Origin: Candidatus Jordarchaeales archaeon | Lineage (GTDB): Archaea; Asgardarchaeota; Jordiarchaeia; Jordiarchaeales; Freyrarchaeaceae | Direction: 5' to 3' | Assembly: GCA_038889235.1 (NCBI GenBank) | Contig: JAWAHN010000003.1 | Span: forward strand, 115,703 to 179,702 | DNA: 64,000 nt | Shown: positions 4,463 to 36,747 of the stretch, in pieces | Numbering within the stretch: the first letter of the stretch is position 1 | Layout: every line of letters starts with the position of its first letter | Made by a program: the position numbers and the translations under genes | Notes under the pieces: generated by a model | What the model saw: the letters and a program-made list of their open reading frames with translations, nothing else | Databases searched by the model: none | Told to the model about the DNA's origin: nothing

Positions 4463-5374
4463 CTAAAGGATTTTGTATAGCGGGGTTTCCTTGTTTTCCA
4501 ACTCGTAGCCTTCCACTACGAGGCTGTATGTTAGAACAGCGTCGACTGTTGCGCATGCTGGGAAGACCACCTCAGCTAGGCTCACAGGCCCGTACAGTAT
4601 GAAGTCTGCTCCAAAGCACCGGGCGAAAACGCACAGGGACACTAGAAGTGTCCTCTTGGCATGAGGGGCTATGTTATCTATTTTTCTTGATCCGCCCAGC
4701 GCGTTTGCAGGTGAGCAGCCGCTCGGGAGACCCGTCGACTCCTTAACCGCCGTTATCGACTCGGCCGCGTACGCCATGCTCACCACGTCTAGGAGCGATA
4801 CGTCCACGAGCACGTTTTTAACGCCTGCTTTCTCCGCTTTCGAAAGAAGTGAGTCGCCGTCGCGGAGCAGCTTCAGCTTTTCTTCGGGTGAAAACTCTGA
4901 CTCGCTGAACGTTAGGAGGACGGCGTTCTCAACTCCCAGTTCTCTTAAGGCCTCAATTTCCTTTGGGCTAGAATCTGGAGTTATCGAGTTATACACGACG
5001 CGCTCCTTTAGACCTACCTCGACAGCGTGACTGCACGCTTCGAGCCGGGCCTCAGTTGAAGGGGAGTCGACGAGTATTGGGGCATCAATCACAGTTGACA
5101 CGAAGTCTATGTAGTTGATGAGGGCGTTGCCGGTTCGCCCCACAACGTCAACCATGCACGGGTTACCCGTGGCGTCGGAGAGCTCCTCCTGTTTTAACAG
5201 GAGTGACTCAGCTCTTCCTCGGTCGAAGGCTCCCTTAACTGGGTCTACCACAAGCTTGTCCCCTTCGTAGAATATAGTACCAACAAGCACTGTAGGGTTC
5301 TCTCCAAGCTGTCCTCCGACGCGGACGCCAGCTATCCTGAAAACCTTTTGTTTTGACTTGAAGCGGAGAAGCAT
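4463..5374 (-). CDS. MtrH-family methyltransferase (methyl-corrinoid:pterin), copy 1
   Basis: The 303-residue protein matches the H subunit of tetrahydromethanopterin S-methyltransferase. Visible family features are the N-terminal IAGVRVGGQ segment, VGTIFYEGDKLVVD, a PILVDSPSTEARLEA segment and GLPSGCSPANALGG. MtrH is the cytoplasmic methyltransferase of the Mtr complex. Stand-alone homologues outside Mtr operons are thought to move methyl groups between a corrinoid protein and H4MPT or H4F. None of the other Mtr subunits is encoded here, so this copy is the stand-alone type. It is the last gene after a corrinoid protein (11-base gap) and a flavoprotein, probably in one operon. Confidence 0.9.
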   Translation of the reverse strand: MLLRFKSKQKVFRIAGVRVGGQLGENPTVLVGTIFYEGDKLVVDPVKGAFDRGRAESLLLKQEELSDATGNPCMVDVVGRTGNALINYIDFVSTVIDAPILVDSPSTEARLEACSHAVEVGLKERVVYNSITPDSSPKEIEALRELGVENAVLLTFSESEFSPEEKLKLLRDGDSLLSKAEKAGVKNVLVDVSLLDVVSMAYAAESITAVKESTGLPSGCSPANALGGSRKIDNIAPHAKRTLLVSLCVFARCFGADFILYGPVSLAEVVFPACATVDAVLTYSLVVEGYELENKETPLYKIL

Positions 5375-5385
5375 TATCTTGTCTC

Positions 5386-6018
5386 CTAGCTTACTCCCAG
5401 GAGCTTTTTGGCGAGCTCGACTGCGCCCTCCGCGTCGGGCGCCCAGCCGTCTGCCCCAACACTTTCAGCCCATTCCTTCGAGGTCACGGCCCCGCCGACG
5501 ATCACCTTGTACTTGTCTCTAACACCCATCTCCTTAAGTATCCTGATTAGTTCCTCGAACTTGGCTAGGGCCGGGGTGAACACTATTGATACAGCTATTA
5601 GGTCAGCTCCGACCTCTTCAGCCTTCTCGTAGAATGTCCATGGTTCAAGGTTTTCACCCAGATCGTAGACTTCGAAGCCGTTTATCGTTAGAAACATGCT
5701 CACAAGGGTCTTCCCGATGTTGTGCTTGCTGAGGAGTGTTCCTATGACGACTTTTTTCTTAGCTCCAGCCTTCTCCTTCGGCAACACTTTTTCAACGAGG
5801 TCTATGCACTTCTTAGCGATCTTGCTTCCCTTAATTAGGTCAGGGATGAAAGCCTGCCTCTTCTCAAACTTGGCGCCTAAGTCGTAGAGCCCCTTGACAA
5901 CCCCCTCCTCGATTATCTTCACGGGGTTAACCCCCTCCTCCAAAAGCTTCCTCGTTAACTCCTCCGCCTCCTCTCTAATCTCAGCTATCGCCCTTCTAAG
6001 ATCTGAGACTTCAACCAA
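5386..6018 (-). CDS. Corrinoid (B12-binding) methyl carrier protein with altered DxHxxG motif
   Basis: The protein has the two domains of MtaC/MttC-type methyl carriers: a helical bundle (about residues 1-85) and a Rossmann-like cobalamin domain. The cobalt-ligand His is kept in GTLLSKHNIGK, but the usual Asp of DxHxxG is replaced by Ser and the loop looks one residue shorter. The lower-ligand side keeps VIVGGA. I chose the TTG at 6016-6018 (210 aa), which has GGGGTGGT just upstream; a longer reading from 6090 would overlap the upstream gene. It sits between a flavoprotein and MtrH copy 1, so it probably carries methyl groups from the divergent MtmB-like enzyme to MtrH. Confidence 0.9.
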   Translation of the reverse strand: MVEVSDLRRAIAEIREEAEELTRKLLEEGVNPVKIIEEGVVKGLYDLGAKFEKRQAFIPDLIKGSKIAKKCIDLVEKVLPKEKAGAKKKVVIGTLLSKHNIGKTLVSMFLTINGFEVYDLGENLEPWTFYEKAEEVGADLIAVSIVFTPALAKFEELIRILKEMGVRDKYKVIVGGAVTSKEWAESVGADGWAPDAEGAVELAKKLLGVS

Positions 6019-6058
6019 GCAACCACCCCATAATGAAAAGTTTGGGCCACGCTTTTTT

Positions 6059-7747
6059 TCATTTTTTCGCGAGGTCTCTTGTGAGCTCACTCGCCGCTAT
6101 GTAGCCGAAGCATATCCCTGCGCCTATAGTTATGCCGCTGCTCGGGTATCCTCCGCCCGAAACAGCAGCTGTGACGTTGCCAGCCGCGTAGAGCCCTGGT
6201 ATAGGCTTGTCGTTGTAGTCGAGAACTTGCGCCTTCTCGTTTATCTTCAAGCCGCCACACGTGCCAAGGCACCCGGGGTACACTTCAATGGCGTAGAATG
6301 GTGGCTTCTCTAGTGGTCCGAGAGTCGGGTTAGGCTTCCAGTTGGGGTCACCGTAGAACCTGTCGAAGTGGCTCTCCCCGCGGTGGAATTCCGGGTCGAC
6401 GCCCTCCTTGGCGTACTTGTTGAACCTTTCAACGGTCTCTTCAAGCCCGTCGGGGTCTATTCCCGCTTTCTTCGCGAGGTCTCTGATCGTGTCAGCCCAC
6501 TTGAAGGGTGGATCAGTCGGCTTAGCCCCTGGGTAGAGGGTGAATACGGTGTAGCTTTGGTGGACGCGCTCGTCGAAAATCATCCACGCTGGAATGTTTG
6601 TGTACTCGTGCTTATTCGGATCCCAGGTGTGCATAGCCCTTGTGAAGTCAAAGTAGTTTGCGGCCTCGTTAGCGAAGCGCTTGCCGTACTTGTTGACTAT
6701 TATCACTCCGGGCAAAGCCTTCTCGAAGAACACTCCCCTGTAGTAGGGTTTCCCGTCGTAAGTGTCGCCCGTGTAGACCGTCGGGAACCACCACGCCTCA
6801 CTCATAAGGTCAACTTGCGCTCCTACCTCCATCGCCATGCGGTGTCCGTCCCCGGTGTTGTGGGGCGGAGACATGGGCCCCCTCATAGGCCCCCTTAGGA
6901 AGGCTGAGGGCATTTTTTCATGCCACTCGAAGCCACCCGTCGCTAGGACCACTCCTTTCCTAGCACGGATCCTGAGCTCTTTTCCCTCGTGCTCCGCTAT
7001 CACGCCGACAACTCTTCCGTTCTCGACGACAAGCTTCTTGGCTGGAGTTTTGTACTTGATCTCTATACCTCTCTCGTAGCAGGAGTACAGCAGGCGGGCT
7101 ATGAGCGCCGTCCCCCACCCGTAGACCCTTTCTTTAAGTCTCTCGTTTATTAGGTTGAAATCCCACTTGCCGCTCATCATCGTTGCTAGCCCGCCCCACT
7201 CAACGAGCTCTTCGAGCAGTATCGGTAGACTGACGGGGGAAAGCCTTACCCGCTCGGCAACCTCTTTCGGTAGAGAGTTGAAGCTTATAAGTTGTGCCTC
7301 CATCACCCTTCCACCCTTCACTCCTCCCTCCCACTCGGGGAAGTAGTCTGGCATCAGTTTGACATGTGACCACTTGACGTGCGTGTTCTTCTCCAGGTAG
7401 TCGCAAGCCTCGTTTACCGTCCTAAGGTACGTTCTTATCAGCTCGTCGCTCGATCTTCCAGCAGCTATCGCCTTCATGTATTTGAAGGCCTTTTCTTCGG
7501 AGTCGGGAGCCTTAACCCACTCCTTTTTAACGGGATCCCAGAACTCCGGCTGGAACCCCTCCCTGATGAACCTGTTATTCGGCACCCAGACGGCTCCCCC
7601 GGAGACAGCGCTTGCTCCACCAGCCTTATCCGTTTTCTCGAGAACGACGACCTTGGCGCCCCTATCGTGGGCGACTATGGCTGCAGTCAGGGCGCCCGCG
7701 CCGCTGCCGACTACCACAACATCTACTTCAAGATCCCACGGCAACAA
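6059..7747 (-). CDS. FAD flavoprotein, ketosteroid-dehydrogenase/fumarate-reductase-like
   Basis: With a TTG start at 7745-7747 behind GGGAGGGG the protein is about 562 residues. The N-terminus has a dinucleotide fold (VVVVGSGAGALTAA) and the EKTDKAGGASAVSGGAVW segment typical of 3-ketosteroid dehydrogenase and fumarate reductase flavoproteins. The C-terminus ends with GLYAAGNVTAAVSGGGYPSS and GITIGAGICFGYIAA, which closes the FAD site. No heme or signal peptide is seen, so it is probably cytoplasmic. It heads an operon with a corrinoid protein and MtrH and is divergent from an MtmB-like gene. A role in oxidising or reducing the substrate, or its demethylated product, is inferred; the substrate is unknown. 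Confidence 0.85.
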   Translation of the reverse strand: MLPWDLEVDVVVVGSGAGALTAAIVAHDRGAKVVVLEKTDKAGGASAVSGGAVWVPNNRFIREGFQPEFWDPVKKEWVKAPDSEEKAFKYMKAIAAGRSSDELIRTYLRTVNEACDYLEKNTHVKWSHVKLMPDYFPEWEGGVKGGRVMEAQLISFNSLPKEVAERVRLSPVSLPILLEELVEWGGLATMMSGKWDFNLINERLKERVYGWGTALIARLLYSCYERGIEIKYKTPAKKLVVENGRVVGVIAEHEGKELRIRARKGVVLATGGFEWHEKMPSAFLRGPMRGPMSPPHNTGDGHRMAMEVGAQVDLMSEAWWFPTVYTGDTYDGKPYYRGVFFEKALPGVIIVNKYGKRFANEAANYFDFTRAMHTWDPNKHEYTNIPAWMIFDERVHQSYTVFTLYPGAKPTDPPFKWADTIRDLAKKAGIDPDGLEETVERFNKYAKEGVDPEFHRGESHFDRFYGDPNWKPNPTLGPLEKPPFYAIEVYPGCLGTCGGLKINEKAQVLDYNDKPIPGLYAAGNVTAAVSGGGYPSSGITIGAGICFGYIAASELTRDLAKK

Positions 7748-7770
7748 ACAACCCCTCCCATCCAACTGTA

Positions 7771-7785
7771 GAAACTGAAAGTTTC
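7771..7785. promoter_or_regulatory. Short inverted repeat in divergent promoter region
   Basis: GAAACT-GAA-AGTTTC forms a perfect 6-base inverted repeat with a 3-base spacer, about 25 bases upstream of the flavoprotein start. It lies in the 134-base region between the two divergent units of methyltransferase cluster 1. It could be an operator for the minus-strand operon. Chance occurrence is possible. Confidence 0.3.
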
Positions 7786-7833
7786 TCTCTAAAAAAAGTT
7801 TTCCGAGAAAGGATTTTTCAAAAAATGGGAAAC

Positions 7834-7843
7834 GCATATATGC
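7834..7843 (+). promoter_or_regulatory. TATA element of the MtmB-like gene
   Basis: The palindrome GCATATATGC is centred about 44 bases upstream of the GTG start at 7882. A TATA box here would place the transcript start near 7864, leaving a short leader that contains the ribosome site (CCGGGGGG at about 7868-7875). Confidence 0.45.
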
Positions 7844-7881
7844 TTGGAGCACCTCATTAGAGAGATTCCGGGGGGTTTAGT

Positions 7882-9237
7882 GTGTCTTTGTTATGGGAAG
7901 TTTTGGAGAGGTCTCAAACTGGTCCTCTCATGAAGGAGGAAGAGTTTGAAACTGAGTTTTTCCCGTCAAAGATAAGGGAGATTGTGAAGGAGCACGGGAT
8001 TAAGTATGACCCGGAAGAAGTCGTTATGACTGATGCGAACATGGCTGACGAGATCTTCGAGGCGGGACTTGAGCTACTACTGGAGGTTGGACTATACAAC
8101 AAGGACACGAAGAGGATAGTGAAGTTCACGGAGGAGGAGATCAAGGAGGTTCTCGCTACGAGGAAGAGGGAGCTCGTTCTCGGGGAGGGGAGAGACCAAA
8201 TAGTCCTGAGGCCTAGGAAGCCGGAGGACAGGGAGCCTCCTAAGACTTTCCTGCCCGCCGGCATACTGACCAGTAACATCGAGCTGTACAAGGCCTATGT
8301 GCTCTCAGCGGCAAAGGAGCCTGTTGCAGATGGACTCATAGCCCTCCCCCTCCAGGGGATAGGTGAACTGAAACCTGTGAGCGGGACTCCCAGCGAAACC
8401 CTCCTCGGACTGACTGAAGGCTTCATCCTCAGAGAAGCAGCTGTGCGCGTAGGTAGGCCTGGAATGTTCCTAGGGATCCCCATGAGCGTGTCGAGCGCAA
8501 AGGCTGTGATGGGCTCTTTCCACCCTGCAGGTTACACGAGGTACAACTGTATGTGCCCGGTTCACATAATACAAGACATGAGGATTGACTATGACAGGCT
8601 TAACTTGGCTTTTTTCGCCCAGCAGAACGGGATAAACCCGTGGATCAGCAGCTGCCCCACGATGTACGCCTATATAGGTGGACCGGAAGAGGCGGCGGTT
8701 GAAGGGATAGCTCACGTCCTCGGAATGATGGCCTATTCCGGTGGCTCCTTTGCTCAAGCCATGAGCGCGACTATTCAGGGGAGGTACGAGGGGAGAGATG
8801 TTTTCTGGGCTAACTCGGCTCAAGCACTCGCCGCTGAGAGGAACATTAGGGTTCCATGGATAAGTTTCGGCGGTGGTGTTACGGGGCAGCAGGCGACCGA
8901 AGTGTCCTTCTATTCAATCGCCGCCACAGTTATAACGAACACTATTTCAGGCATGGAGGGGATGTGGCTTACGGGGGGTGTGCCGGGGATTGAGGGAAGG
9001 TGGGGTGGAGAAGTGGCGAGGGCTGCGGCTGGCATAAAAGTAAGTGACGGAGTAGAGATAGTGAAAGAGCTGCTTAAGAGGTACGAGGACAAGGCGAAAG
9101 TCGGGTTGCCGAGCGAGACGCTAATACTAGAAAAGTACGACATGAAAACTCTTACACCGAAGAAGGAGTACGTCGAACTCTACTCGAGGATGAAGAAGGA
9201 ATTACAGGACATGGGCCTAGAGTATGAAGCGTGGTGA
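7882..9237 (+). CDS. Monomethylamine methyltransferase (MtmB) homologue without pyrrolysine
   Basis: The 451-residue protein has the length of MtmB and shares its segments: MADEIFEAGLELLLEVGLY, RIVKFTEEEI, ELVLGEGRD, a GRPGM segment near residue 192, and a C-terminal GGEVARAAAG plus VKTLTPTEEY-like tail (MKTLTPKKEY). MtmB moves the methyl group of monomethylamine to a corrinoid protein and uses pyrrolysine, encoded by an in-frame UAG. Here the reading frame is uninterrupted, and the matching region (about residues 215-225, GYTRYNCMC) has ordinary residues. The substrate is therefore probably not monomethylamine. Start is GTG with a G-rich ribosome site. Divergent from the flavoprotein-corrinoid-MtrH operon, which should supply its methyl acceptor. 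Confidence 0.85.
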   Translation: MSLLWEVLERSQTGPLMKEEEFETEFFPSKIREIVKEHGIKYDPEEVVMTDANMADEIFEAGLELLLEVGLYNKDTKRIVKFTEEEIKEVLATRKRELVLGEGRDQIVLRPRKPEDREPPKTFLPAGILTSNIELYKAYVLSAAKEPVADGLIALPLQGIGELKPVSGTPSETLLGLTEGFILREAAVRVGRPGMFLGIPMSVSSAKAVMGSFHPAGYTRYNCMCPVHIIQDMRIDYDRLNLAFFAQQNGINPWISSCPTMYAYIGGPEEAAVEGIAHVLGMMAYSGGSFAQAMSATIQGRYEGRDVFWANSAQALAAERNIRVPWISFGGGVTGQQATEVSFYSIAATVITNTISGMEGMWLTGGVPGIEGRWGGEVARAAAGIKVSDGVEIVKELLKRYEDKAKVGLPSETLILEKYDMKTLTPKKEYVELYSRMKKELQDMGLEYEAW

Positions 9238-9287: not shown

Positions 9288-10328
9288 TTAGAGTATTCTG
9301 CGAAGCTCGCGTCTAACGAATGCCTCCCTCTTTTCGTCGTCTAATTTGTTCGTTAATTGTGAAAGACTCTTTACGAGGAGTGTTATGCCATCCACATCGT
9401 CCACGTACCTTTCCAGGGGGTTGTCTTCATGCTCTAGGGCGCGCGCAGCAGCCGTGCCTGTCTCTACGGCGAACCTAATGCCCTCCCCAGAAAACGGGTT
9501 GCAGAAGCCCCCCGCGTCGCCTACGAGGAGCACGTTCCCCTGCCCGTGTAAGACCGTCCCCTGCGGTATAAACCAGTGCTCCCTCCTCAACAATCTACGC
9601 AGCTTAAACCCTAGTCCCTCTAAAACCTCTTTGACCTTCCCGATGCTGGATTTAGCTTCTCTAAGCGTCGACGCCCCAGACCCCACTATGAAAAAGTCTC
9701 CTTTAGGTATCAGGTAACCGTAAAGGGGGGTAATGTTTCTCCCCAGGAGGAGCATGTAGAAGCACTCTTCGAGCTCACCGTCACCCTTCCAGTGCTCTTG
9801 GACAACGGATGCTGTTTTGAAATGAGCCCCGGGGAACAAGGTCCGCCTAGCCTTCGAAAAAACCCCGTCCGCCCCAACCAGGAATCTCGCCTCAATTCTT
9901 TCCACCCGCCCCCCAAGTTTAACCGCGACAGTCACTTCGCCCCCGTGCTGCTTAATGTCCACGAGGCGGGCGCCGTAGAGCAGCTCGACCCCCCTACTCT
10001 CTGCCTCTCTCCTAAGCCATTTGTCGAACGCGTGTCTTTCAATGTTCACAAGCCTGTAACTTTTCACGCGCCCCCTGTAGCCGCTCGGGGAAACATAGAA
10101 TAAGCCTAGCTTGCCGGGCGTGCTTAGAACGCTCTTAGGCAGACTTAGGCCTAGTTCGTGTGCGAGGACGTCTACGCACACCTCGGTTAGCACTCCCCCG
10201 CACGGCTTACACGCCTGAACACTGCCTTTCTCCACTAGCAGGGTGTTGTAGCCTTCCTCAGCCGACTTTATTGCTGCACTCGCCCCCGCTGGGCCAGCTC
10301 CGGCTACTATTAAGTCGTATTTTTTCAA
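9288..10328 (-). CDS. Geranylgeranyl-reductase-family FAD protein, LipT-like
   Basis: The 346-residue protein starts with an FAD dinucleotide fold (DLIVAGAGPAGASAAIKSAEEG, read in two parts). It has the KPCGGVL segment and the GDAGGFCNPFSGEGIRFAVETG segment of the geranylgeranyl reductase family. Such proteins reduce isoprenoid chains. However, a member called LipT is found in gene clusters for the LipS1/LipS2 lipoate pathway and is proposed to supply electrons. The gene overlaps the lipoate-ligase gene by 4 bases (ATGA) and follows two radical SAM genes, so LipT is the better reading. A lipid role cannot be excluded. Confidence 0.75.
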   Translation of the reverse strand: MKKYDLIVAGAGPAGASAAIKSAEEGYNTLLVEKGSVQACKPCGGVLTEVCVDVLAHELGLSLPKSVLSTPGKLGLFYVSPSGYRGRVKSYRLVNIERHAFDKWLRREAESRGVELLYGARLVDIKQHGGEVTVAVKLGGRVERIEARFLVGADGVFSKARRTLFPGAHFKTASVVQEHWKGDGELEECFYMLLLGRNITPLYGYLIPKGDFFIVGSGASTLREAKSSIGKVKEVLEGLGFKLRRLLRREHWFIPQGTVLHGQGNVLLVGDAGGFCNPFSGEGIRFAVETGTAAARALEHEDNPLERYVDDVDGITLLVKSLSQLTNKLDDEKREAFVRRELRRIL

Positions 10329-11911
10329 CGCTGCTTCTCTCCCTTAAACTTGCAAATACTGCCTATTATCTTGGACAGCGTGTCCAGCTTGAGCCTGGTT
10401 TGAGCCTCAAAGTTCCCCTTGTATGCTTCCTCGCTTTTCCCCAGCTCGTAGCAGGTTTTGTCGTCTATCGTGATTATGAGTCCTGGAACGCCCACTGCTT
10501 CCAGCTCGTCCCTATGTTTCTGGTAGAACGCCTCACAGCAGCACCCTACGAAGCCCCTCGCCCCCTTCTTCTTCATGAAATTAAGGACTTCCATGAGGTG
10601 CTCGAAGTTCTGTATGGTGATCGGGGTTAGCCCGGCTTCCTCAGCCATTCTGTAGGCTTCTCCAACGCTGCAGACGCCGCACTTCTCGCATCCCTCAACT
10701 CTCCTGTAACTGCACTCCACGTGTTTTGCGCAGTAGGGGAGTAGCAGGTAGTCGCATTCTCCTAGTGGCATCATCCAGGCTTTACTTGTTACGGGGAGCA
10801 CGTAGTTTAACTCGTCCCCTCTCAACCCATACTTCTCGTAGTGCAACTTCCCGGCGGCCTCAATTATTAGGTCGGCGACGTCGTCTGGGGAAATGCCGGG
10901 AATACACTCACCCCTCAACTTGAAGAACTCTTTAACCCTTCTGCGTATCTCCTCCTCATCGCATGGTGAAAACTTCAGGGCTGCTTCGAGGTCATATACC
11001 ACTCTGGGTGGGAAGGCGAAGAAGTCTCCTGTTATAAGTACGTGTTTTATGAGGTTTGCCTCTCTATCGACTGTCAGCGCCACTCTTATCAGCCCACCAG
11101 GCTTCTTCGCTATGGAGTAGAGGACCGCCGGTTCATCGGACGACCTCCTGTCCAGGAATACCCAGTCATCGGACTGGAAGTACGGCAGCCTCTCACGTAG
11201 CATTTTCTCCTCCTCTTCGAGGAGGCCTGACTCCTCGAGCTCCACTCCCATCGCTTCCTCGAAGCCGCTTATCAAGCACTCTTTGATCTCCTCGTAGGAT
11301 GGCTTATAGCCGAGCTCCCACGACAAGCAGGTGACCCTCTCCCTCACCGACTGTATCTCCTTGTCCTTAAGCTTGACGACAGGTATTCTTAACGCTTTGA
11401 TCATCGTTTCAACGTCGAAGTCGACGAGCAACGTCCCCTGGAACAGTATCGCCCCACCCCTCTCCGTTCCTCCTGTCCCCGAGATCTTCCTGCCCTCAAC
11501 CTCTATGTCGTTCTTCGGGCGGAATGAGGCCCTAACCCCTAGCTTCTCCAGAGCCTTAATGGCGCCGGCGCACATTATTCTGAAAAGGGACTCGATGCTT
11601 CCATATGGCGGGATATCACTCTTCGAAGCAATTACTTCCCAGCCGACGGACTCCTCGTCGAAGTATATCGCGCCGCCACCAGTGATCCTCCTGTTCACAT
11701 GTATTCCTTTCTCCTTAACGTAGTCCATCCTCACCTCCTGCGTGACATCCTGGTGGTAGCCTACAAGTACGGCTGGGGGCTTGAACCTCAAGAGGCGGAA
11801 GGTGTTCGGGCTAACACCCCTCGCCTTACACTCAAGTAGGACGTCGTCAAGCGCCATGTTCTCCGCGGCTGTTCTGAGCCCGGTATCCAGGAGACGCCAG
11901 ACAGCCCTCAA
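10325..11911 (-). CDS. Lipoate-protein ligase LplA-LplB fused to a DUF116 Cys-rich domain
   Basis: Residues about 1-235 form a lipoate/octanoate ligase (RRITGGGAIYF, PKNDIEVEGRKISGTGG with the catalytic Lys, and LFQGTLLVD). About 240-345 is an LplB-like accessory domain. About 370-528 is a DUF116 domain with many Cys (LPYCAKHVECSYR, CEKCGVC, GCCCEAFY), which may bind an Fe-S cluster or metal. The ligase would load octanoate or lipoate on lipoyl domain proteins. I chose TTG at 11909-11911: it overlaps the upstream stop as TTGA, and GGAG lies 8 bases ahead. It is part of a tight operon with two radical SAM proteins and a LipT-like flavoprotein. No lipoyl-domain target is in the window. Confidence 0.85.
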   Translation of the reverse strand: MRAVWRLLDTGLRTAAENMALDDVLLECKARGVSPNTFRLLRFKPPAVLVGYHQDVTQEVRMDYVKEKGIHVNRRITGGGAIYFDEESVGWEVIASKSDIPPYGSIESLFRIMCAGAIKALEKLGVRASFRPKNDIEVEGRKISGTGGTERGGAILFQGTLLVDFDVETMIKALRIPVVKLKDKEIQSVRERVTCLSWELGYKPSYEEIKECLISGFEEAMGVELEESGLLEEEEKMLRERLPYFQSDDWVFLDRRSSDEPAVLYSIAKKPGGLIRVALTVDREANLIKHVLITGDFFAFPPRVVYDLEAALKFSPCDEEEIRRRVKEFFKLRGECIPGISPDDVADLIIEAAGKLHYEKYGLRGDELNYVLPVTSKAWMMPLGECDYLLLPYCAKHVECSYRRVEGCEKCGVCSVGEAYRMAEEAGLTPITIQNFEHLMEVLNFMKKKGARGFVGCCCEAFYQKHRDELEAVGVPGLIITIDDKTCYELGKSEEAYKGNFEAQTRLKLDTLSKIIGSICKFKGEKQR

Positions 11912-12918
11912 TTTTTCACTCTCCAAGCGAGTGAGCAACATTCATCGTGAAACACAACCGACAAACCCCTCTTGACCGACAAGCGGTAGGCTGCCTCCGA
12001 CGGGTAGGCTATCCCGTTTACCCCGGCTTTCACTCCTAGCACGTCTAAGGCCCCCCCATACCTCCCCCTAGGCCTAGCACATCCTAGGAGCAGCGGGGTT
12101 TTAGGCTTCGCCATCCTAGCGGCGACGACAACCCTCAACACGTCTCTTAAGGGGGGCGGTGGCGTCTTTTCCATCGGAGTGGCCTCGAGGGGCATCAATA
12201 CGACTATGACGAGCGACGCTATCTTTCTCTCGCAGACGGCTTTCAGCGCTTCTCTCTCCCCCCTCAGCCTGCCCCCCTGTAGTCCGACCACCACGTGGGG
12301 AGCTAGCGGGACGCCGTGTTGCTCCAGTAGTTCAAGCGAGTGAACGTAGTCCTCCACGCTCCGGTTCAAATGGAGCACCCCCCTTATGGTTTCATTTGAG
12401 CCGACGACGTCTATCATGGCGCAGTCCACGCCTGCTGAGGCGAGCCCTTCAGCGGTCTCCTCGTCGACCAGTCCCGTGTGAACGACGACGCTCAACCCCA
12501 ACTCCTCCTTGATTCTCCTCATCACTTTGAAAAAGGGTTTCAGTGGAACACTGCCGTCGGCAAGACTTCCACCGCTGACGAGGATACCCGTCCCTCCCTC
12601 CTCCCTCACTTTCAGGGCGACCTCGTAAAGCTTCTCCGGGCTCCCCGCCGGCAACATCCTCCTCAGTAGTCTGCCCCTGCAGTGGTCACAGTTCAGCTGG
12701 CACACCTTTCCCGTCACGGATACAGCGGGGAAGCGGTATGGGTTCATCGCCCTATAGAAACTCGCCTCGAAGTGGACCATTCCCGGGAAGTAGAAGTGGA
12801 TGACGTCTGGGAAGTTTTCAGACCTAACCTTGTAGGCTGACCTCAGTAGGTGCGTCAGCTCTTCGGGGCTGCACTCGAAAGGTCGGTCGACGGCCTGGCT
12901 GCAACGCGGGCTACTCAT
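11908..12918 (-). CDS. Radical SAM protein, candidate LipS1/LipS2-type lipoyl synthase subunit
   Basis: The 336-residue protein has a CxxxCxxC cluster motif at VCQLNCDHCRG (about residues 73-80) for a [4Fe-4S] cluster that cleaves S-adenosylmethionine, and a GGSLADG SAM-binding segment. Two Cys near the C-terminus (DECCSL) could hold an auxiliary cluster. In Thermococcus two different radical SAM proteins together insert sulfur into octanoyl chains, and their genes cluster with a ligase. The arrangement here matches that pathway. Which of the two is LipS1 and which LipS2 is not decided. The gene overlaps its upstream partner by 8 bases. Confidence 0.75.
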   Translation of the reverse strand: MSSPRCSQAVDRPFECSPEELTHLLRSAYKVRSENFPDVIHFYFPGMVHFEASFYRAMNPYRFPAVSVTGKVCQLNCDHCRGRLLRRMLPAGSPEKLYEVALKVREEGGTGILVSGGSLADGSVPLKPFFKVMRRIKEELGLSVVVHTGLVDEETAEGLASAGVDCAMIDVVGSNETIRGVLHLNRSVEDYVHSLELLEQHGVPLAPHVVVGLQGGRLRGEREALKAVCERKIASLVIVVLMPLEATPMEKTPPPPLRDVLRVVVAARMAKPKTPLLLGCARPRGRYGGALDVLGVKAGVNGIAYPSEAAYRLSVKRGLSVVFHDECCSLAWRVKN

Positions 12919-14032
12919 CTATCGCCGCCACCTCTCGCACCCACACTTTGACGGGTGTGTCCGAGTAGTCTCTCAGCTGCAGCTTAATTATTTCCACGTC
13001 CTCCCTTCCCGGTTTGAATGGGTAGTTTCTCATCTCTCCTATGTAAGCTTGGTACGGTGTAAAGTCTGAGAAAGGCCTGTTGCACGCGTTCTCCCTGTTC
13101 TTGCTCGAGCAGCCCGAAGTCATGAAGGGTAGCCCGCTCTCGACGACCTTTTCGTAGACACTGTCGGTGACTCCGAAACCTGTGATTCGCCCCCTTTCGT
13201 CGAACTCCATGTCCTCAAACCTAGAGATACCCTTGTTTATGAGGTACCTTGCAAGTTGAACCCTCCTGTAGCTGCCTATGGGAGGCTGAGGCATTGACTC
13301 TAGAAGGGAGCCTGCTTCCGGGAAGAAGGAGAAGAGGTGTGTTAGCGCGCCCATGTCATAGGCGGCCTGAATCGTCTGAACCGCCTCCCTCTCCGTCTCC
13401 CCTAACCCAACTATCAAGTGGATTCCAACGTTAAATGCGCCGAAAACGTCCACCGACTCCTCTACAGTTTTCCAGTATTTCTCCCACTTGTGCGGTCCCT
13501 TGACGCCGCGCCCCCTAAGCTTCTCGAACAGCTCGGGTGTAGCCGCGTCCACGGCAACGCCTACCTTGTCGACCCCTGCGCTTTTAGCACTCCACAGCCA
13601 ATCCCTGTCCACTATGGTCGGCGAAATTAGGGCTGAGATCTCGTCAATCACCTCTCTAACGGCTTCTACGACTTTCAGCGTGTCCTCCCTAGCCCTCCTG
13701 TGTGTAATCATGGAGACGCAGGCGCGCTCAACGTGCGGACAAGCTCCCTCAGCGACCCTTCTCACAACATCCGCGAGGGGGACCACCGGCCAATCAACAC
13801 GTATAAAGCTGCGCGCACTCCAAGACCAGCCGGAGCTCCTGGACCTTGAAAGTCCGCAGTAGGCACACCTACCGACGCAGCCATCGTTATATGTCAGGAG
13901 CAGGTTCAAGCAGTAGAGCTTCGTCTCCCTAAAAAACCTTCCGCGGCATAGACCCAGTGTGATAGCTGCCGCCAAGCTGACCCTCACGTATTCAGGCGAC
14001 TCGCCAAACAACACTTCGCCGGCTTCACTCAA
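12911..14032 (-). CDS. Radical SAM protein (biotin-synthase-like), candidate LipS1/LipS2 partner
   Basis: The 373-residue protein carries the radical SAM motif GCVGRCAYCG at about residues 55-62, followed by a TIM-barrel region (GVAVDAATPELFEKLRGRG; GIHLIVGLGETEREAV) as in biotin and lipoyl synthases. A Cys-containing C-terminal segment (TSGCSSKNRENACNRPF) may hold an auxiliary cluster used as the sulfur source. It is the first gene of the four-gene operon with the ligase and LipT-like protein, which supports a sulfur-insertion role in lipoate assembly. A biotin-synthase role is less likely because no bio genes are near. Confidence 0.75.
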   Translation of the reverse strand: MSEAGEVLFGESPEYVRVSLAAAITLGLCRGRFFRETKLYCLNLLLTYNDGCVGRCAYCGLSRSRSSGWSWSARSFIRVDWPVVPLADVVRRVAEGACPHVERACVSMITHRRAREDTLKVVEAVREVIDEISALISPTIVDRDWLWSAKSAGVDKVGVAVDAATPELFEKLRGRGVKGPHKWEKYWKTVEESVDVFGAFNVGIHLIVGLGETEREAVQTIQAAYDMGALTHLFSFFPEAGSLLESMPQPPIGSYRRVQLARYLINKGISRFEDMEFDERGRITGFGVTDSVYEKVVESGLPFMTSGCSSKNRENACNRPFSDFTPYQAYIGEMRNYPFKPGREDVEIIKLQLRDYSDTPVKVWVREVAAIDE

Positions 14033-27674: not shown

Positions 27675-27731
27675 CGGTAACAAAATTGGATTTGCAGGGC
27701 TTAGGGAAAAGGGGAGGTGAGGTGGGCTTTT

Positions 27732-28652
27732 ATGTTTAGGTTTACAGCCGAGCAAAAAACGTTCAACATAGCGGGAGTTAAGGTCGGCGGCCAGCCGGGA
27801 CAGGTCCCCACTGTTATGATAGGCACTATTTTCTATCACGGAGACAAGCTTGTTGTAGACGAGCGGGAGGGTGTCTTTAACAGATCGGCTGCCGAGGAAG
27901 TGCTGAGAAAGGAGGAGGAGATTTCCCTCAGGACTGGGAACCCACGCATAGTCGACGTCTGTGCCTCTCATCCTCAAGCGTTCGAGAAGTTCATCGACTT
28001 CGTGGCTGACGTTGTGGAAGGACCTTTCTGCATCGATGGCACCACGGCTGACGTTAGGATAGCGGGAGCGAGGTATGTTATGGAGGTTGGCTTGTCGAAC
28101 CGTGTCATATACAACTCCATAAGCCCAGACGTGAAGGATGCTGAGCTTCAAGCAATCAAGGACGCTGGAATTAAGTCCGCGGTGCTGCTGCTCCTCAACG
28201 TTAGAAATCCGCTTATCAGTGGAAAATTCGAGGTAATCGATGAACTATTGCGAAAGGCTTCGACCGCAGGCGTGGAAAACGTCCTCATAGATACTGCTAC
28301 CATAGACATATTAGACCCCGGCCCCGTATCTAAAGCGATTTACTTGGTGAAAGAGAGGTATGGCTACCCGGCAGGTTGCGGCGCGCACAACGCCATCGAC
28401 ATATGGCGTAAGCGCACGAAGCTGAGCCCAGGCGTAAAGTTCTCAGGGACCATTCTGGCAAACGTCCTACCCGTGGTCATGGGGGCAGACTTCCTCCTCT
28501 ATGGACCCATAGAAAACGCGGCAAAAATATACCCTCCAGTGGCGCTTGCAAATGCGTACGCGGCGTACACTTTGTGGCAGGAGTACGGTGTAAAGCCCCC
28601 GGCGGGGAACCACCCGTTTTACAACCTTAGCAAAATAGCTGCCATAGAGTAG
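27732..28652 (+). CDS. MtrH-family methyltransferase (methyl-corrinoid:pterin), copy 2
   Basis: The 306-residue protein is a paralogue of MtrH copy 1 in this window, with FNIAGVKVGGQPGQVPTVMIG, GTIFYHGDKLVVD and GYPAGCGAHNAIDIW. It would transfer methyl groups between a corrinoid protein and a pterin. I chose ATG at 27732 because a GGAGGTGAGGTGGG ribosome site lies just ahead; an upstream GTG at 27717 is inside that site. The chaperonin-like gene follows after 14 bases on the same strand, so both are probably cotranscribed. The partner corrinoid and MttB genes are on the opposite strand just downstream. Confidence 0.9.
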   Translation: MFRFTAEQKTFNIAGVKVGGQPGQVPTVMIGTIFYHGDKLVVDEREGVFNRSAAEEVLRKEEEISLRTGNPRIVDVCASHPQAFEKFIDFVADVVEGPFCIDGTTADVRIAGARYVMEVGLSNRVIYNSISPDVKDAELQAIKDAGIKSAVLLLLNVRNPLISGKFEVIDELLRKASTAGVENVLIDTATIDILDPGPVSKAIYLVKERYGYPAGCGAHNAIDIWRKRTKLSPGVKFSGTILANVLPVVMGADFLLYGPIENAAKIYPPVALANAYAAYTLWQEYGVKPPAGNHPFYNLSKIAAIE

Positions 28653-28666
28653 AAACAGCTATCTCT

Positions 28667-30415
28667 ATGAAGCATCCAACTCTCTTCGAGGGAGTGGACG
28701 TGGAGCTGGGTGGCGGGCTAGCTCATGTTCTTTCTAAGGCTTACAGTAGGCTGGATGACGTCAGGAAAACGAACATTGCAGTCGCAGTGGTTATCTCTGA
28801 GATTTTGAAGACGATGATTGGTCCTAAAGGAATGAGTAAGATGCTGGTTACTGAGACCGGAGACGTGCTAGTGACTAGTAGTGGCAGGGCTATGCTGGAG
28901 AGGCTGAGGGTTTCCCACCCTGTTGCTAGAGGCTTGGTGGATGTTGCTAGGGTCCAGGGCGAGCTCACCGGCGATGGAACGAAAACGGCAGTGGTGGTTG
29001 CAGGGGCGCTGCTGAGGGAGGCGGAGAAGCTCATGGATCAGAAGGTTCACGTTACAACCATAATTGAGGGCTACAGGAAGGCGGCTGTCAAAGCCGTGGA
29101 AGTTCTAGAAAGGCTTGCAATTAGAACGTCTGCTGAAAATGAGGAGGTTATAAGGAGTGTCGCAAGAACGTTCCTTAGAGGACGTTTTAATGAGGACGTC
29201 CAGGACCATGTTGCCGACCTGATGCTAAAAGCGGTCCTTCTCACCCACAAAGGGGGGAAAGATGCATCCATTGAAGATGAAGTCTGCTTCGTCAAAAAAG
29301 CCGGTTCAGACGTGAGCGCTTCCGAATTGATTCGCGGCGTTGTTATATGCAGGGAGAAACCTCACCCGAGGATGCCCAGCAAGATGACTAATGTTAAAGT
29401 TGCACTGCTGAACTGTTCGCTTCAACCCTTCCTGCGTAAAAGCGAAGAGTGGAAGAAGGAGTACTTGATTGGCGAGGAAGGTCGACTGGCGGCTTTCATA
29501 AAAGGTGAAAGCGAGATTTACAGGGAAATTGTGGGGCGGGTTAAGCGAGTGGGTGTGTCCGCCGTCTTTTGCCGCAAAAGAATTAGTGAGAAACTGGTTA
29601 GTTGCTTCGCGAGCGAGGGCCTCCTAGCCTTTGAACTTGTTTCGGAGGAGGACATTGCTAGGCTTACGAGGGCAACCAGGGGGCGGGTGGTTTCGTACGT
29701 AAATGACTTGACAGAGAGAGACTTAGGTGTAGCGAGACTCGTGGAGTTCCGGAAAATCGCTGGTGACGAAGTCTTGGTCGTAGAGGGGGGTGAGGGGTCT
29801 ACCGCTGTTACACTGCTCCTGAGAGGGGGAACTACGGAAGCTGTTGAAGAGCTTGAGAGAATGACGAGAAACGGGCTTAAAGCCTTGTCTCTCGCCCTTA
29901 AGGATGGAAGAATCTTGCCGGGCGGTGGGGCTACAGAGGTCGAGGTCTCTAGGGAGTTGAGAAGTTTTTCGAGAGCATTTACCGGCAAGGAGCAACTAGC
30001 CATAGAGGCTTTTGCAAAAGCCATTGAAACAATTCCGAGGATCATCGCGGAGAACGCTGGACTCAAAGCCAGCGACGTTCTACCGGATCTATACGCTAAG
30101 CACGCCGCCGGCGGCAGGAATTTCGGGGTGGACGTTGTCAAGCGCGAGGTCGTCGACACAGTTAAAGCCGGATTGTTCGACGTGTTTGAAGTTAAGAGAC
30201 GCGCAATTCTAGCAGCCTACGAGTTCGCTACGATGATCCTCCGCGTGGACGACGCTGTTGTCGCGAAGACGAGTGAATTGAGGAAAATGGAGGAAGAGAA
30301 GGTGAAGGAAAGGAAGAGGTTTCTCGACGAGAAAATCAGGAAGGTGCTAGGAAAGGACGAGGAGCTAATGAAAGTGAGCAAAAAACTTACAAGCTTAAGC
30401 CCAGCGTTGGACTAA
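28667..30415 (+). CDS. Divergent group II chaperonin (thermosome-like) with altered ATPase residues
   Basis: The 582-residue protein has all three thermosome domains: IGPKGMSKMLV at about 51, apical ELIRGVVICREKPHPRMP at about 220-237, and equatorial C-terminal LAIEAFAKAIETIPRIIAENAG. Two ATPase Asp positions are changed: the normal SNDG loop is T70-S-S-G, and the catalytic Asp before the GGG loop (normally LNDA) is N402 in TRNG. GDGT at 102-105 is kept, but the next residue is Lys106. The tail is long and charged (KVKERKRFLDEKIRKV) and lacks the GGM repeats. Altered residues match positions that in GroEL (D52, D398) control hydrolysis. It follows mtrH copy 2 by 14 bases; a folding or scaffold role for the methyltransferase system is inferred. 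Confidence 0.9.
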   Translation: MKHPTLFEGVDVELGGGLAHVLSKAYSRLDDVRKTNIAVAVVISEILKTMIGPKGMSKMLVTETGDVLVTSSGRAMLERLRVSHPVARGLVDVARVQGELTGDGTKTAVVVAGALLREAEKLMDQKVHVTTIIEGYRKAAVKAVEVLERLAIRTSAENEEVIRSVARTFLRGRFNEDVQDHVADLMLKAVLLTHKGGKDASIEDEVCFVKKAGSDVSASELIRGVVICREKPHPRMPSKMTNVKVALLNCSLQPFLRKSEEWKKEYLIGEEGRLAAFIKGESEIYREIVGRVKRVGVSAVFCRKRISEKLVSCFASEGLLAFELVSEEDIARLTRATRGRVVSYVNDLTERDLGVARLVEFRKIAGDEVLVVEGGEGSTAVTLLLRGGTTEAVEELERMTRNGLKALSLALKDGRILPGGGATEVEVSRELRSFSRAFTGKEQLAIEAFAKAIETIPRIIAENAGLKASDVLPDLYAKHAAGGRNFGVDVVKREVVDTVKAGLFDVFEVKRRAILAAYEFATMILRVDDAVVAKTSELRKMEEEKVKERKRFLDEKIRKVLGKDEELMKVSKKLTSLSPALD

Positions 30416-30440
30416 AAAATGATTTTGGGACTGGGGAACT

Positions 30441-31130
30441 TCACTTTTTACCTGTCGCCGGCTTACCCTTTTTTCGCTCTGCGAGAAGTTTTTTCGCCTT
30501 TTCGAGGGCTATCATCACGTCGGTAGCGTAGTCGTCGGCTCCGCACTCCCTACACCACTCTTCACCAGGGAAAGCACCGCCACCAACCATGTAAATGTAC
30601 TTGTCTCTGAGCCCCCTCTTCTTCAAGGCTTCTCCTAGGAACTTTTGCTGTTGAAGCGTATTGCTCATGAGTGCGGAGGCACCAATAATGTCCGCGTTGA
30701 CTTCTTCAGCCTTCTTTATGAAGTTTTCCACAGGCTGATCTACGCCTATATTGTACACCTTGAAGCCCGCTGCAGTAAACACGGCGGTGACGATGTTAAT
30801 GCCAAGACTGTGAATGTCACCCTCAACCGTCCCTATAACCATCACGCCAAGGGGCTCCGGCCTCTTGTCCTCGGGTATGTATTTGAGAAGTTCGTTCGTC
30901 GCTTTCTCCATGACTTGCGCTGCCAGCATTAGGAAGGGTAACGGGATCTCACCTCTACCAAACTTGTCGCCGACTTCCTTTATCCCGGCTGTAAGCCCCT
31001 TAGTGATGGCTTCTACAGGGTCTATCTGGGCTGATATCGCCTCTTTCACTGCAGCCATGGCGGCTGCCTCGTCGAAGTTTACGACAGCCTCGGCCAGCCT
31101 CTTTAGTATCGCTTCTTTCTTGGCGCTCAT
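30441..31130 (-). CDS. Corrinoid (B12-binding) methyl carrier protein, MttC-like
   Basis: The 229-residue protein has a helical bundle (about 1-90) and a cobalamin-binding domain with the intact motif GDIHSLG, whose His is the lower cobalt ligand, plus a glycine-rich GGGAFPG segment. It would accept the methyl group from the MttB-family enzyme encoded just upstream (4-base ATGA overlap) and pass it to an MtrH. In contrast to the first corrinoid protein of this window, the DxHxxG motif is standard. The C-terminal tail is Lys-rich. Confidence 0.93.
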   Translation of the reverse strand: MSAKKEAILKRLAEAVVNFDEAAAMAAVKEAISAQIDPVEAITKGLTAGIKEVGDKFGRGEIPLPFLMLAAQVMEKATNELLKYIPEDKRPEPLGVMVIGTVEGDIHSLGINIVTAVFTAAGFKVYNIGVDQPVENFIKKAEEVNADIIGASALMSNTLQQQKFLGEALKKRGLRDKYIYMVGGGAFPGEEWCRECGADDYATDVMIALEKAKKLLAERKKGKPATGKK

Positions 31131-32632: not shown

Positions 32633-32695
32633 CCCTCCTCACCCACCAATTTTTTGGTTTTTTAAGTATAAAATAATTTGTTTCACGAAGTTACA

Positions 32696-32706
32696 ACATA
32701 GTGATT
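32696..32706. promoter_or_regulatory. Operator candidate, arm 1 of an 11-base inverted repeat
   Basis: ACATAGTGATT is the exact reverse complement of AATCACTATGT at 32797-32807. The two copies flank the centre of the divergent promoter region between the mttB-like operon and the corrinoid-activation gene. This copy is 64 bases upstream of the mttB-like start. Confidence 0.5.
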
Positions 32707-32796
32707 CATGTTGGTAGCTTTGGCCGAGAAATAACGCAACTTTATGCATAAACGTCCGTTTTACTCGAACCTACTCTTAAAAAAGGATAAGGTTGA

Positions 32797-32807
32797 AATC
32801 ACTATGT
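32797..32807. promoter_or_regulatory. Operator candidate, arm 2 of an 11-base inverted repeat
   Basis: AATCACTATGT is the exact reverse complement of the sequence at 32696-32706. This copy is 14 bases before the GTG at 32821 and probably overlaps the transcript start of the corrinoid-activation gene. A shared regulator binding both sites is inferred. Confidence 0.5.
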
Positions 32808-32820
32808 ATAGTGGACGCCG

Positions 32821-34755
32821 GTGAAGTGGATGAGCGGAGATGTAACCGTTGTTTTTCAGCCTGAAGGAAAGCGTGTCACAGTGAAGCCTGGGGGGAACCT
32901 GCTGGAGATAGCTAAGCTTGTAGGCGTAGACATCACCTCGGTGTGTGGTGGTAGAGGGACTTGTGGCAAGTGTAAGGTGGTGATCGAGGAGAACAGGGGG
33001 AATGTTTCCCCGCTGACTGCAAAGGAGGGGAAAATCCTGTCCCCCAGCGAGGTTGCTAAAGGGTATAGGCTGGCATGTTGCACGTTCGTTGGTGGCCAAG
33101 TCGTCGTTAAGGTGCCCGAGGAAAGTAGGACGGGGCGGCAGCGGCTTCAAGTTGAGGGAGTAGAAACACCTGTGGCTTTGAATCCACCTGTGTGCAAATA
33201 CTTTTTGAAGCTGCCTAAGCCGTCCCTCAGCGATCCTAAGCCTGACGCCGAGATACTACTCGGCGAGCTGAGACGCCAGGGTGTGGGACGAGATGTGGAA
33301 ATAGACTTTCACGTGCTGCAGACTTTGCCGGTAGCTCTCAGGAAGAAAGATTGGAGTGTAACTGTCGTCATGTGGAATGGCAGGGTCATAGGTGTGGAGC
33401 CCGGTGATACGACTAGGAGAGCGTTCGGCTACGCTGTCGATATAGGGACGACGAAGCTTGCCGGTTACTTGCTCGACCTCTTAACCGGGAAGGTTGTCGC
33501 CGTGGAGTCAATGATGAACCCGCAGATATCTTACGGCGAGGACGTCATAGCCAGGATCACGTACGCGTCTAAGGGGTTAAGGGAGCAGAGGAGACTTCAA
33601 AAAGTTGTCATAAGCGCCATAAACAAGATGCTCGACTCGCTCCTTAATAAGACTGGCGTGAAGAGGGGGGAGGTTTACGAGATGGTTGCCGTTGGCAACA
33701 CCGCAATGCACCACCTCGCTCTGGGCATATGTCCAAAGTATTTAGCCCTGTCACCCTATACGCCAGCCAACAGGAGGGGGGTAAACGTCGCCGCCCGCAA
33801 TCTCGGTGTGAGGATAAACCCGAATGGTAACGTCTACTTTCTCCCCATTATAGGTGGCTTCGTGGGCGCTGACACCATGGGCGTACTTTTAGCGACGGGA
33901 ATGTACAAAAGGGATGAAATGTGCCTAGCGATAGATATTGGGACCAATACGGAAGTCCTTTTGGGAAACAAGGACGAAATATTGGCGTGCTCCTGTGCGT
34001 CGGGCCCGGCTTTTGAGGGGGCACACATAAAACACGGAATGAGGGCGGCCACTGGCGCCATCGAGAAGATAAAGATAGATGAGAAGTTTGAAGTTAAATA
34101 TGAGACCATAGACGGCGAGAAGCCTCGCGGGATATGCGGCTCAGCTATGATAGATTTTCTGGCGGAAGCGCTAAAGGCGGGGTTAATTGACTTCACCGGC
34201 GTTTTCAATAGGGAAATAAGCTCGGACAGGCTGCGCAGCGGGGAAAGAGGACTTGAATTCGTAGTGGCATGGGGAGAGGAAACGTTTACAGGTGAGGACA
34301 TAGTTATAACTCAAAATGACATTAAGGAGATCTTGCTGGCTAAAGCAGCGATACACACGGGGATCAGCATCCTTATGAAGAAGAAGGGTTTAACTGAGAG
34401 GGACATCGACGTCTTCTTCGTCGCCGGAGCATTCGGCTCATACATAAACCCGGAGAACGCTAGGATAATAGGAATGTACCCCGAGCTGCCGTTGGAGAGA
34501 GTACGCGTAGTGGGTAATGCTGCCGGTACTGGTGCTCGCATGGCCCTCTGTTCCAGAGACGTAAGGGAGACCGCCGAAACCCTTGTAGGAAAGGTGAAAT
34601 ATGTTGAGCTCGCCGCGGAGGCGGGCTTTCAAGCGGAGTTCCTTAACTCGTACTTCCTGCCTCACGCTGACCTCTCAAGATATCCTGAAACAAGTGATCT
34701 TCTCAGAAAGCTGGGTAGATACCCCAAAAGGCCTCCAGTATGCTTCCCAACCTGA
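32821..34755 (+). CDS. Corrinoid reductive activator (2Fe-2S ferredoxin plus ASKHA ATPase, RACo/DUF4445 type)
   Basis: The 644-residue protein has an N-terminal plant-type ferredoxin domain with Cys 42, 48 and 51 (CGGRGTCGKC) and 86 or 87 (RLACC), a linker, and an actin-like ATPase part with YAVDIGTTKLAG, LAIDIGTNTEVLLG, ASGPAFEGAHIKHGM and VAGAFGSYI. Such proteins use ATP to drive electrons into inactive Co(II) corrinoid proteins. Both the MtrH/MttB clusters in this window would need it. GTG at 32821 and ATG at 32830 are possible starts. It is divergent from the mttB-like operon and probably shares its control. Confidence 0.93.
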   Translation: MKWMSGDVTVVFQPEGKRVTVKPGGNLLEIAKLVGVDITSVCGGRGTCGKCKVVIEENRGNVSPLTAKEGKILSPSEVAKGYRLACCTFVGGQVVVKVPEESRTGRQRLQVEGVETPVALNPPVCKYFLKLPKPSLSDPKPDAEILLGELRRQGVGRDVEIDFHVLQTLPVALRKKDWSVTVVMWNGRVIGVEPGDTTRRAFGYAVDIGTTKLAGYLLDLLTGKVVAVESMMNPQISYGEDVIARITYASKGLREQRRLQKVVISAINKMLDSLLNKTGVKRGEVYEMVAVGNTAMHHLALGICPKYLALSPYTPANRRGVNVAARNLGVRINPNGNVYFLPIIGGFVGADTMGVLLATGMYKRDEMCLAIDIGTNTEVLLGNKDEILACSCASGPAFEGAHIKHGMRAATGAIEKIKIDEKFEVKYETIDGEKPRGICGSAMIDFLAEALKAGLIDFTGVFNREISSDRLRSGERGLEFVVAWGEETFTGEDIVITQNDIKEILLAKAAIHTGISILMKKKGLTERDIDVFFVAGAFGSYINPENARIIGMYPELPLERVRVVGNAAGTGARMALCSRDVRETAETLVGKVKYVELAAEAGFQAEFLNSYFLPHADLSRYPETSDLLRKLGRYPKRPPVCFPT

Positions 34756-34846
34756 AGGGAACGGAACTGGTGGTATGTCGCGGGATTGGTTATAGCGTTT
34801 TTTGGTAGTTTAAGGTTTCCTTCCAGGAGTGCTGGTGGGCTGGTGA

Positions 34847-35452
34847 TTGGAGGTGGTTAGCGATAGGCTGAGGAGGGTTGTAGAGTTCCTTCAGACTGTT
34901 CAAGGTGTGAGGAAAGTAATAGTTCTAGGTAACGTTGAGCGTGAAGCCCTTCTTCAAGCCGAGTTAAGGGGCGAGAAAAGCGTCATAGGAGGGCAGGGGT
35001 TCAATGAAGGGGTGAGGGAAGCACTTTCCAGGGAGTTTGTTGTCGCATGCTCCACTGATAAACGCTTTAAGTGGCCTAAGGGGCCTTACGTCGTCCTAAA
35101 GAGCGGGGACACTGTTGTCGGCTTCATAACGGATGACGTTGAAAACATAAAGCGACAGTGTAACGAAGAGACTTACGTTTTCGGGGGTAGCTTGATACTC
35201 TTCCCAGACAGAATTAGGAAGTTGAAGGATAAGGAGAAGGCCACGATTTTCGTCTATAAGGGGTTTAAAATGGAGGCGCTTGAGGCAGAAGCGGATGTGA
35301 AGGACGCGGTTTTAGCTTTCTGCACGCGGGCCGGTGACGCGTATCTAAAAAGGCTGCTTGGTGAAAGTGAAGATGCGAGCATCGGGACAATAGTAGTAGG
35401 TTTTAACCTTGAAAAAAGAGGAGAGGACAAAGAGTTGGAGGGAAAGTGTTAG
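34847..35452 (+). CDS. Hypothetical protein, 201 aa, next to the corrinoid activator
   Basis: No family recognised. The protein has an N-terminal region with RKVIVLGNVEREALLQ, a middle segment YVVLKSGDTVVGFITDD, and a mixed alpha/beta pattern without membrane helices. It starts with TTG at 34847 behind GGTGGGCTGGTGA and lies 91 bases after the activator on the same strand, so it may be cotranscribed and serve the methyltransferase system. It is convergent with a 3-hydroxyacyl-CoA dehydrogenase gene and the two stops are almost adjacent. Confidence 0.65.
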   Translation: MEVVSDRLRRVVEFLQTVQGVRKVIVLGNVEREALLQAELRGEKSVIGGQGFNEGVREALSREFVVACSTDKRFKWPKGPYVVLKSGDTVVGFITDDVENIKRQCNEETYVFGGSLILFPDRIRKLKDKEKATIFVYKGFKMEALEAEADVKDAVLAFCTRAGDAYLKRLLGESEDASIGTIVVGFNLEKRGEDKELEGKC

Positions 35453-35453
35453 T

Positions 35454-36683: not shown

Positions 36684-36747
36684 TTCACACCATCCTCCAA
36701 CACGCTCGTCCAGCTAGAGATTGAAACTCTCTATTAAGTCTTTCCCT

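Follow-up and report, generated by a model that had tools for sequence, protein, structure and literature searches.

What does an MtmB-family methyltransferase act on when it lacks pyrrolysine (Pyl) and is encoded back to back with a ketosteroid-dehydrogenase-like flavoprotein? This question is raised by a four-gene cassette at positions 4463-9237 of a 64,000-nucleotide stretch of a Candidatus Jordarchaeales archaeon genome (GCA_038889235.1, contig JAWAHN010000003.1, positions 115,703 to 179,702; here termed the window), in which genes for a KstD-like flavin adenine dinucleotide (FAD) protein, a corrinoid protein and an MtrH-like methyltransferase diverge from the gene for an MtmB homologue. 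Given the full KstD active site of the flavoprotein and the recurrence of KstD-like or BaiCD-like flavoproteins beside related MtmB genes, we propose, in a judgement that is evenly poised, that the cassette uses B12 chemistry to take a methyl group from carbon in a 3-keto steroid-like ring, in the manner of the bacterial AbeABC system.

Non-pyrrolysine MtmB homologues with assigned functions are already known, which renders outdated the claim of an initial annotation of this DNA that the locus opens such a role for the MtmB branch. EmtA of Denitratisoma (PMC7448270, PMC12507874) is part of the machinery that places a methyl group on C10 of estrogens, yielding androsta-1,4-dien-3-ones; demethylation of 1-dehydrotestosterone, the reverse reaction, was also measured in extracts (PMC7448270). 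According to a review (PMC12507874, on Wang et al. 2025), AbeABC of Phosphitispora sp. TUW77 demethylates testosterone at C19 and channels the methyl group into the Wood-Ljungdahl pathway; the system is reported to share 57% identity with EmtAB and to have homologues in uncultivated marine sediment bacteria. MtqB, which acts with the corrinoid protein MtqC in Methanococcoides methylutens Q3c, demethylates tetramethylammonium and choline, as shown in 2026 (PMC13044021); it is reported to branch near the Pyl proteins, and the tree of that study covers 1,061 Pyl and non-Pyl MtmBs.

The flavoprotein of the cassette narrows the range of substrates. Its best PDB match is the 3-oxosteroid 1-dehydrogenase AcmB of Sterolibacterium (7P18, 3e-108), with KstD1 (4C3X) also among the best, and it shares 36-40% identity with both over its length. 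The four residues with catalytic roles in KstD1, Tyr119, Tyr318, Tyr487 and Gly491 (PMC5348764), are all kept, as Tyr170, Tyr400, Tyr569 and Gly573 in open-reading-frame numbering. Judged by these residues and its FAD_binding_2 fold, the protein is KstD-like, and its active site suggests that the substrate carries a 3-keto ring, as with EmtA and AbeA, and is not some unspecified methylated amine. The best NCBIfam match, the 3-ketosteroid-delta-1-dehydrogenase model NF009478, reaches 478.6 bits against a cutoff of 789 and thus stays below equivalog assignment. Since the scores lie below cutoff and a 4-oxocyclohexanecarboxylate dehydrogenase matches almost equally, the predicted ring chemistry of the flavoprotein is well supported, the exact substrate not.

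The divergently encoded methyltransferase is a member of the MtmB family. It matches the family profile over its full length (residues 4-450 of 450), aligns end to end with MtmB of Methanosarcina barkeri (26% identity to MtmB1) and adopts the MtmB TIM-barrel fold in an AlphaFold model (predicted local distance difference test score, pLDDT, 94) that gives a template modelling (TM) score of 0.90 against 1L2Q/1NTH. This model was built from 29 sequences and replaced a poor 5-sequence one (pLDDT 42). Membership of the MttB family was set aside, as Foldseek gave TM scores of 0.47-0.57 to MttB-superfamily structures versus 0.90 to MtmB. In a tree of 63 MtmB sequences, the three Jordarchaeia proteins join a bacterial group, made up of one Dehalococcoidales (Chloroflexota) and eleven Myxococcota sequences, at 100/100 support and on the far side from the Pyl-containing MtmBs. 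The Dehalococcoidales protein is the single member of the clade found in 400 sampled Chloroflexota genomes, and a plasmid collection held no MtmB match. A search for AbeA-type MtmBs returned no match in 399 genomes of Thermincola's phylum at 1e-60, and ten Thermincola-class genomes yielded only Pyl-type MtmBs at 1e-40. One Thermincola genome carries a tandem of corrinoid protein and Pyl-type mtmB in two copies with identical match scores (L073:9281-16887), the in-frame TAG falling at match residue 197.

Pyrrolysine use was rejected for the window protein: its gene has no in-frame UAG, Gly198 occupies the Pyl202 site, and no pyrrolysyl-tRNA synthetase (PylS) above the family cutoff was found in eight genomes of the class, the control genome being positive. 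Within Asgardarchaeota, Pyl coding has been reported only in Sifarchaeia, and Mcr has been reported absent (PMC9723677). The substrate pocket is also remodelled across the clade, with Pyl202 replaced by Gly and Glu259 by Ser in all sequences, Glu229 by Pro in all but one, and Gln333 by Phe or Tyr in all but two. In the numbering of the window protein, Pro226, Ser256 and Phe/Tyr329 stand in place of Glu229, Glu259 and Gln333, which we take, from the 2002 structure, to be the amine-site residues of MtmB. Because all four positions are replaced, the amine-holding site is gone and the volume of the pyrrolysine is free.

The cassette is conserved beyond the source genome. The identical divergent order of the four genes occurs in the same-genus relative Candidatus Jordarchaeum sp. 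LHC_1308 (G074, locus L031) and in Candidatus Jordarchaeum madagascariense (G076, locus L034), which represents a different family; since it is kept in three Jordarchaeia genomes across two families, source genome included, the arrangement is not due to chance. Compared with C. J. madagascariense, identity is 86% for MtmB, 81% for the flavoprotein, 76% for the corrinoid protein and 62% for MtrH, the latter being 76% identical to its counterpart in the other cassette. Two further genomes (G073 and G078) contain MtmB fragments of the same type that are interrupted by contig ends. Across 226 genomes of the phylum, flavoprotein relatives at 80-91% identity are found only where the cassette is present, and the next relatives, about 40% identical, belong to a different family without MtmB. 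As a separate observation, another Asgard family (f7, L054-L062), which is devoid of MtmB, has KstD-like proteins of about 41% identity in many of its genomes, with all four catalytic residues in the three that were checked.

The open-reading-frame list places two starts too far upstream, at 6090 for the corrinoid protein and 7852 for the flavoprotein, and comparison with relatives moves them to about 6018 and 7747. With these starts, the minus-strand genes are transcribed in the order FAD protein, corrinoid protein, MtrH-like protein, with gaps of 11-41 bp (Table 1). When the region between the divergent genes was aligned with that of relatives, no shared promoter motif could be demonstrated.

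Table 1. Features of the cassette and a neighbouring candidate activator, in window positions.
Feature	Position	Strand	Basis
MtrH-like methyl-corrinoid:pterin (tetrahydromethanopterin/tetrahydrofolate) methyltransferase, 303 aa	4463..5374	-	PF02007 9e-81; NCBIfam MtrH-family subfamily NF002142 above cutoff
Corrinoid protein, MtxC type	5386..6018	-	PF02607 (B12-binding_2) and PF02310 (B12-binding); axial-His motif SKHNIG
KstD-like FAD dehydrogenase, ~562 aa	6059..7747	-	PF00890 3e-81; best PDB match 7P18; four catalytic residues
Divergent intergenic region, flavoprotein/mtmB	7748..7881	.	Weak alignment with the relative from the same genus; no motif proposed
MtmB-family methyltransferase, 451 aa, no pyrrolysine codon	7882..9237	+	PF05369 4e-63; fold; tree; pocket columns
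AcsV/RamA-like corrinoid reductive activator, neighbouring MttB cluster	32821..34755	+	NF040756 AcsV 2e-158, sub-cutoff

These results leave the initial annotation partly supported. Its full-length, pyrrolysine-free MtmB relative, facing an operon for a corrinoid protein, an MtrH and a large FAD protein, is confirmed with all four genes where they were first listed; the tree retains the protein in the MtmB family, and the two other Jordarchaeia cassettes bear out the co-occurrence of the genes. The view that the set looks complete for demethylation likewise holds, as corrinoid protein, MtrH and FAD protein accompany the MtmB homologue, whereas leaving the substrate unspecified passed over the full KstD active site.

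Flavoproteins of related type recur at other MtmB loci. In the sister clade, one Myxococcota locus (L130) encodes, divergently from mtmB, a KstD-like protein that retains the four catalytic residues, and another (L128) has a KstD fragment directly upstream of mtmB; at a third (L111), genes for a corrinoid protein and a methyl-tetrahydrofolate methyltransferase face away from mtmB, which is grouped with genes for an FAD protein and a BaiCD-like enone reductase. A Jordarchaeia paralogue in the sister clade (L067) has an mtmB frame with one TAA stop and, after it, a BaiCD-like gene. In this clade and its sister clades, MtmB-family genes are recurrent neighbours of KstD-like or BaiCD-like flavoproteins, at 7 of 13 loci versus 0 of 19 from other MtmB clades (Fisher p = 0.0005; 0.012 when the closest bacterial group, with none adjacent, is included), a test that is only indicative because it was framed after the data were seen and the loci are related. 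Flavoprotein "homologues" at three loci (L133, L137 and L139), picked as longest open reading frames, turned out to be wrong-frame and were left out. The stretch L111:7569-14419, with its BaiCD/bilirubin-reductase-like enone reductase, is another candidate C-methyl or enone system in its own right.

For the Jordarchaeia cassette, we envisage the following sequence of reactions. The KstD-like enzyme would add the C1-C2 double bond to a 3-oxo-4-ene ring to give a 1,4-dien-3-one. The MtmB homologue would position this ring so that its angular C10 methyl is open to attack by the Co(I) centre of the corrinoid protein; as the ring would leave as a phenol, aromatisation would drive methyl transfer. 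MtrH would then pass the methyl group from cobalt to tetrahydromethanopterin and thereby into the Wood-Ljungdahl pathway. Because the KstD product is the very 1,4-dien-3-one whose C19 demethylation aromatises the ring, the operon can be read as a self-contained AbeABC-type pathway. The AcsV/RamA-like activator encoded farther along the window is possibly shared with the cassette. While genes, conserved linkage, KstD active site and loss of pyrrolysine and amine-site residues are observed here, we infer substrate class, direction and every chemical step, and a direct link to steroids could fall either way. Somewhat more tentative is the full picture of an oxygen-independent "aromatase" in Jordarchaeia, in which KstD, MtmB-type protein, corrinoid protein and MtrH may together demethylate a 3-keto steroid at C19, render its ring A aromatic and load the methyl group onto tetrahydromethanopterin.

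A number of observations weigh against this reading. The window yielded no further steroid genes, and the literature consulted contained no report of steroid metabolism in Jordarchaeia. The likeness to EmtA and AbeA was drawn from published descriptions. Among the closest bacterial relatives of the MtmB homologue (Chloroflexota and Myxococcota, 48-60% identical), none shows a KstD gene within about 10 kb of mtmB, so linkage to KstD does not extend to the clade as a whole; 9 or 10 of the 12 MtmB-bearing Myxococcota genomes tested encode KstD homologues elsewhere. In most of this bacterial group the conserved partner is instead a fusion of MtrA-like, thymidylate-synthase-like and DUF4346 parts. 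Finally, the flavoprotein scores 458 bits with 4-oxocyclohexanecarboxylate dehydrogenase versus 479 with the ketosteroid model, both sub-cutoff, and cyclic ketones other than steroids may be compatible with its KstD-type residues as well. The latter points favour demethylation of a non-steroid methylated cyclic ketone or enone (a terpenoid, methylcyclohexenone or other gem- or angular-methylated ring) that the KstD-like enzyme would desaturate, as the KstD family includes non-steroid members and BaiCD-like enone reductases beside other MtmBs fit general enone chemistry. We consider such a substrate unlikely, in that the C-methyl MtmB-family members found characterised in the literature act only on steroids (PMC7448270, PMC12507874).

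Were the substrate a methylated or quaternary amine, the flavoprotein might oxidise what demethylation leaves behind or be a mere neighbour. Such a role has a precedent in the non-Pyl homologue MtqB (PMC13044021), and quaternary-amine systems likewise combine MtrH with a corrinoid protein. Yet this reading too is improbable: the amine-site residues are replaced, the protein lies far from the Pyl clade whereas MtqB is reported near it, and a KstD active site without obvious use on small amines is nevertheless kept at 80-91% identity. KstD-type enzymes are reversible in principle, which would allow the cassette to run in the opposite direction, methylating a phenolic ring to a 1,4-dien-3-one that the KstD-like enzyme then reduces. 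EmtAB does operate in the methylating direction in Denitratisoma, but there the endergonic methylation is driven by S-adenosylmethionine (SAM), with SAM-regeneration genes alongside (PMC7448270). The present cassette instead has MtrH as partner and no genes of the SAM cycle next to it, which makes a reverse pathway very improbable.

Should C-demethylation of a 3-keto steroid-like ring prove right, it would provide a testable substrate class for one branch of the many non-pyrrolysine MtmBs without an assigned function, and a KstD or BaiCD-like flavoprotein encoded next to an MtmB homologue would be a candidate marker for such chemistry. Anaerobic steroid C-demethylation, so far found only in a few bacteria, would extend to archaea closely related to eukaryotes, and the oxygen-independent "aromatase" would be without archaeal precedent and the first whose operon includes its own KstD. 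Even with a non-steroid substrate, the link between MtmB-family C-methyl chemistry and a ring-desaturating flavoprotein repeats across phyla and points away from amines.

Further loci were recorded during the analysis. The Myxococcota fusion, whose DUF4346 part is pterin-binding (L101:6101-7483; equivalents in L099, L100, L102-L104 and L106-L108), adjoins the MtmB/corrinoid pair, often with a TetR gene, and may stand in for MtrH. Near the bacterial pair, a conserved protein of about 150 aa occurs in Chloroflexota and Myxococcota (L065:2527-2973, L102:7843-8316, L104:10121-10573); scans of two copies gave no Pfam match, and the L065 copy had no NCBIfam match either. The window itself contains a second corrinoid methyltransferase cluster (27717-37794), comprising an MtrH-like protein (27717-28652), a corrinoid protein (30441-31130), a non-Pyl MttB (31127-32632), the activator listed in Table 1 and a Mer-like F420 LLM protein (36748-37794). 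Between mtmB and ilvD lies a lipoate cluster (9288-14032) with lipoyl synthases of the LipS1 and LipS2 types and a lipoate-protein ligase of unusual length (538 aa), beside a geranylgeranyl-reductase-like protein; it is apparently missing at this place in the same-genus genome G073 (L032).

Comparison with known systems places the cassette as follows. M. barkeri MtmB1 (1L2Q/1NTH) has the same fold and full-length homology, and differs by its low identity and by Pyl202, Glu229, Glu259 and Gln333, all replaced here. MtqB/MtqC is likewise a demonstrated pair of non-Pyl MtmB homologue and cognate corrinoid protein, yet it acts on amines, is reported to branch near the Pyl MtmBs, from which the window protein is remote, and has no reported KstD-like partner. 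For KstD1 and AcmB, we found no published description of a KstD inside a corrinoid methyltransferase cassette, nor did the literature searched hold a report of an MtmB-KstD-corrinoid-MtrH operon or of archaeal steroid C-demethylation. AbeABC resembles the proposed system in its cobalamin-dependent removal of the C19 methyl and, by description, in the kinship of AbeAB with EmtAB, whose EmtA is an MtmB homologue; it differs in its bacterial host and in that the review (PMC12507874) mentions no KstD within the cluster, whereas the present host is archaeal and the pterin step MtrH-like. EmtABCD, for which SAM-driven methylation with adjacent SAM-regeneration genes and no MtrH partner are described (PMC7448270), shares with the cassette a non-pyrrolysine MtmB-type catalytic subunit and a corrinoid partner, and its product is the 1,4-dien-3-one that KstD forms.

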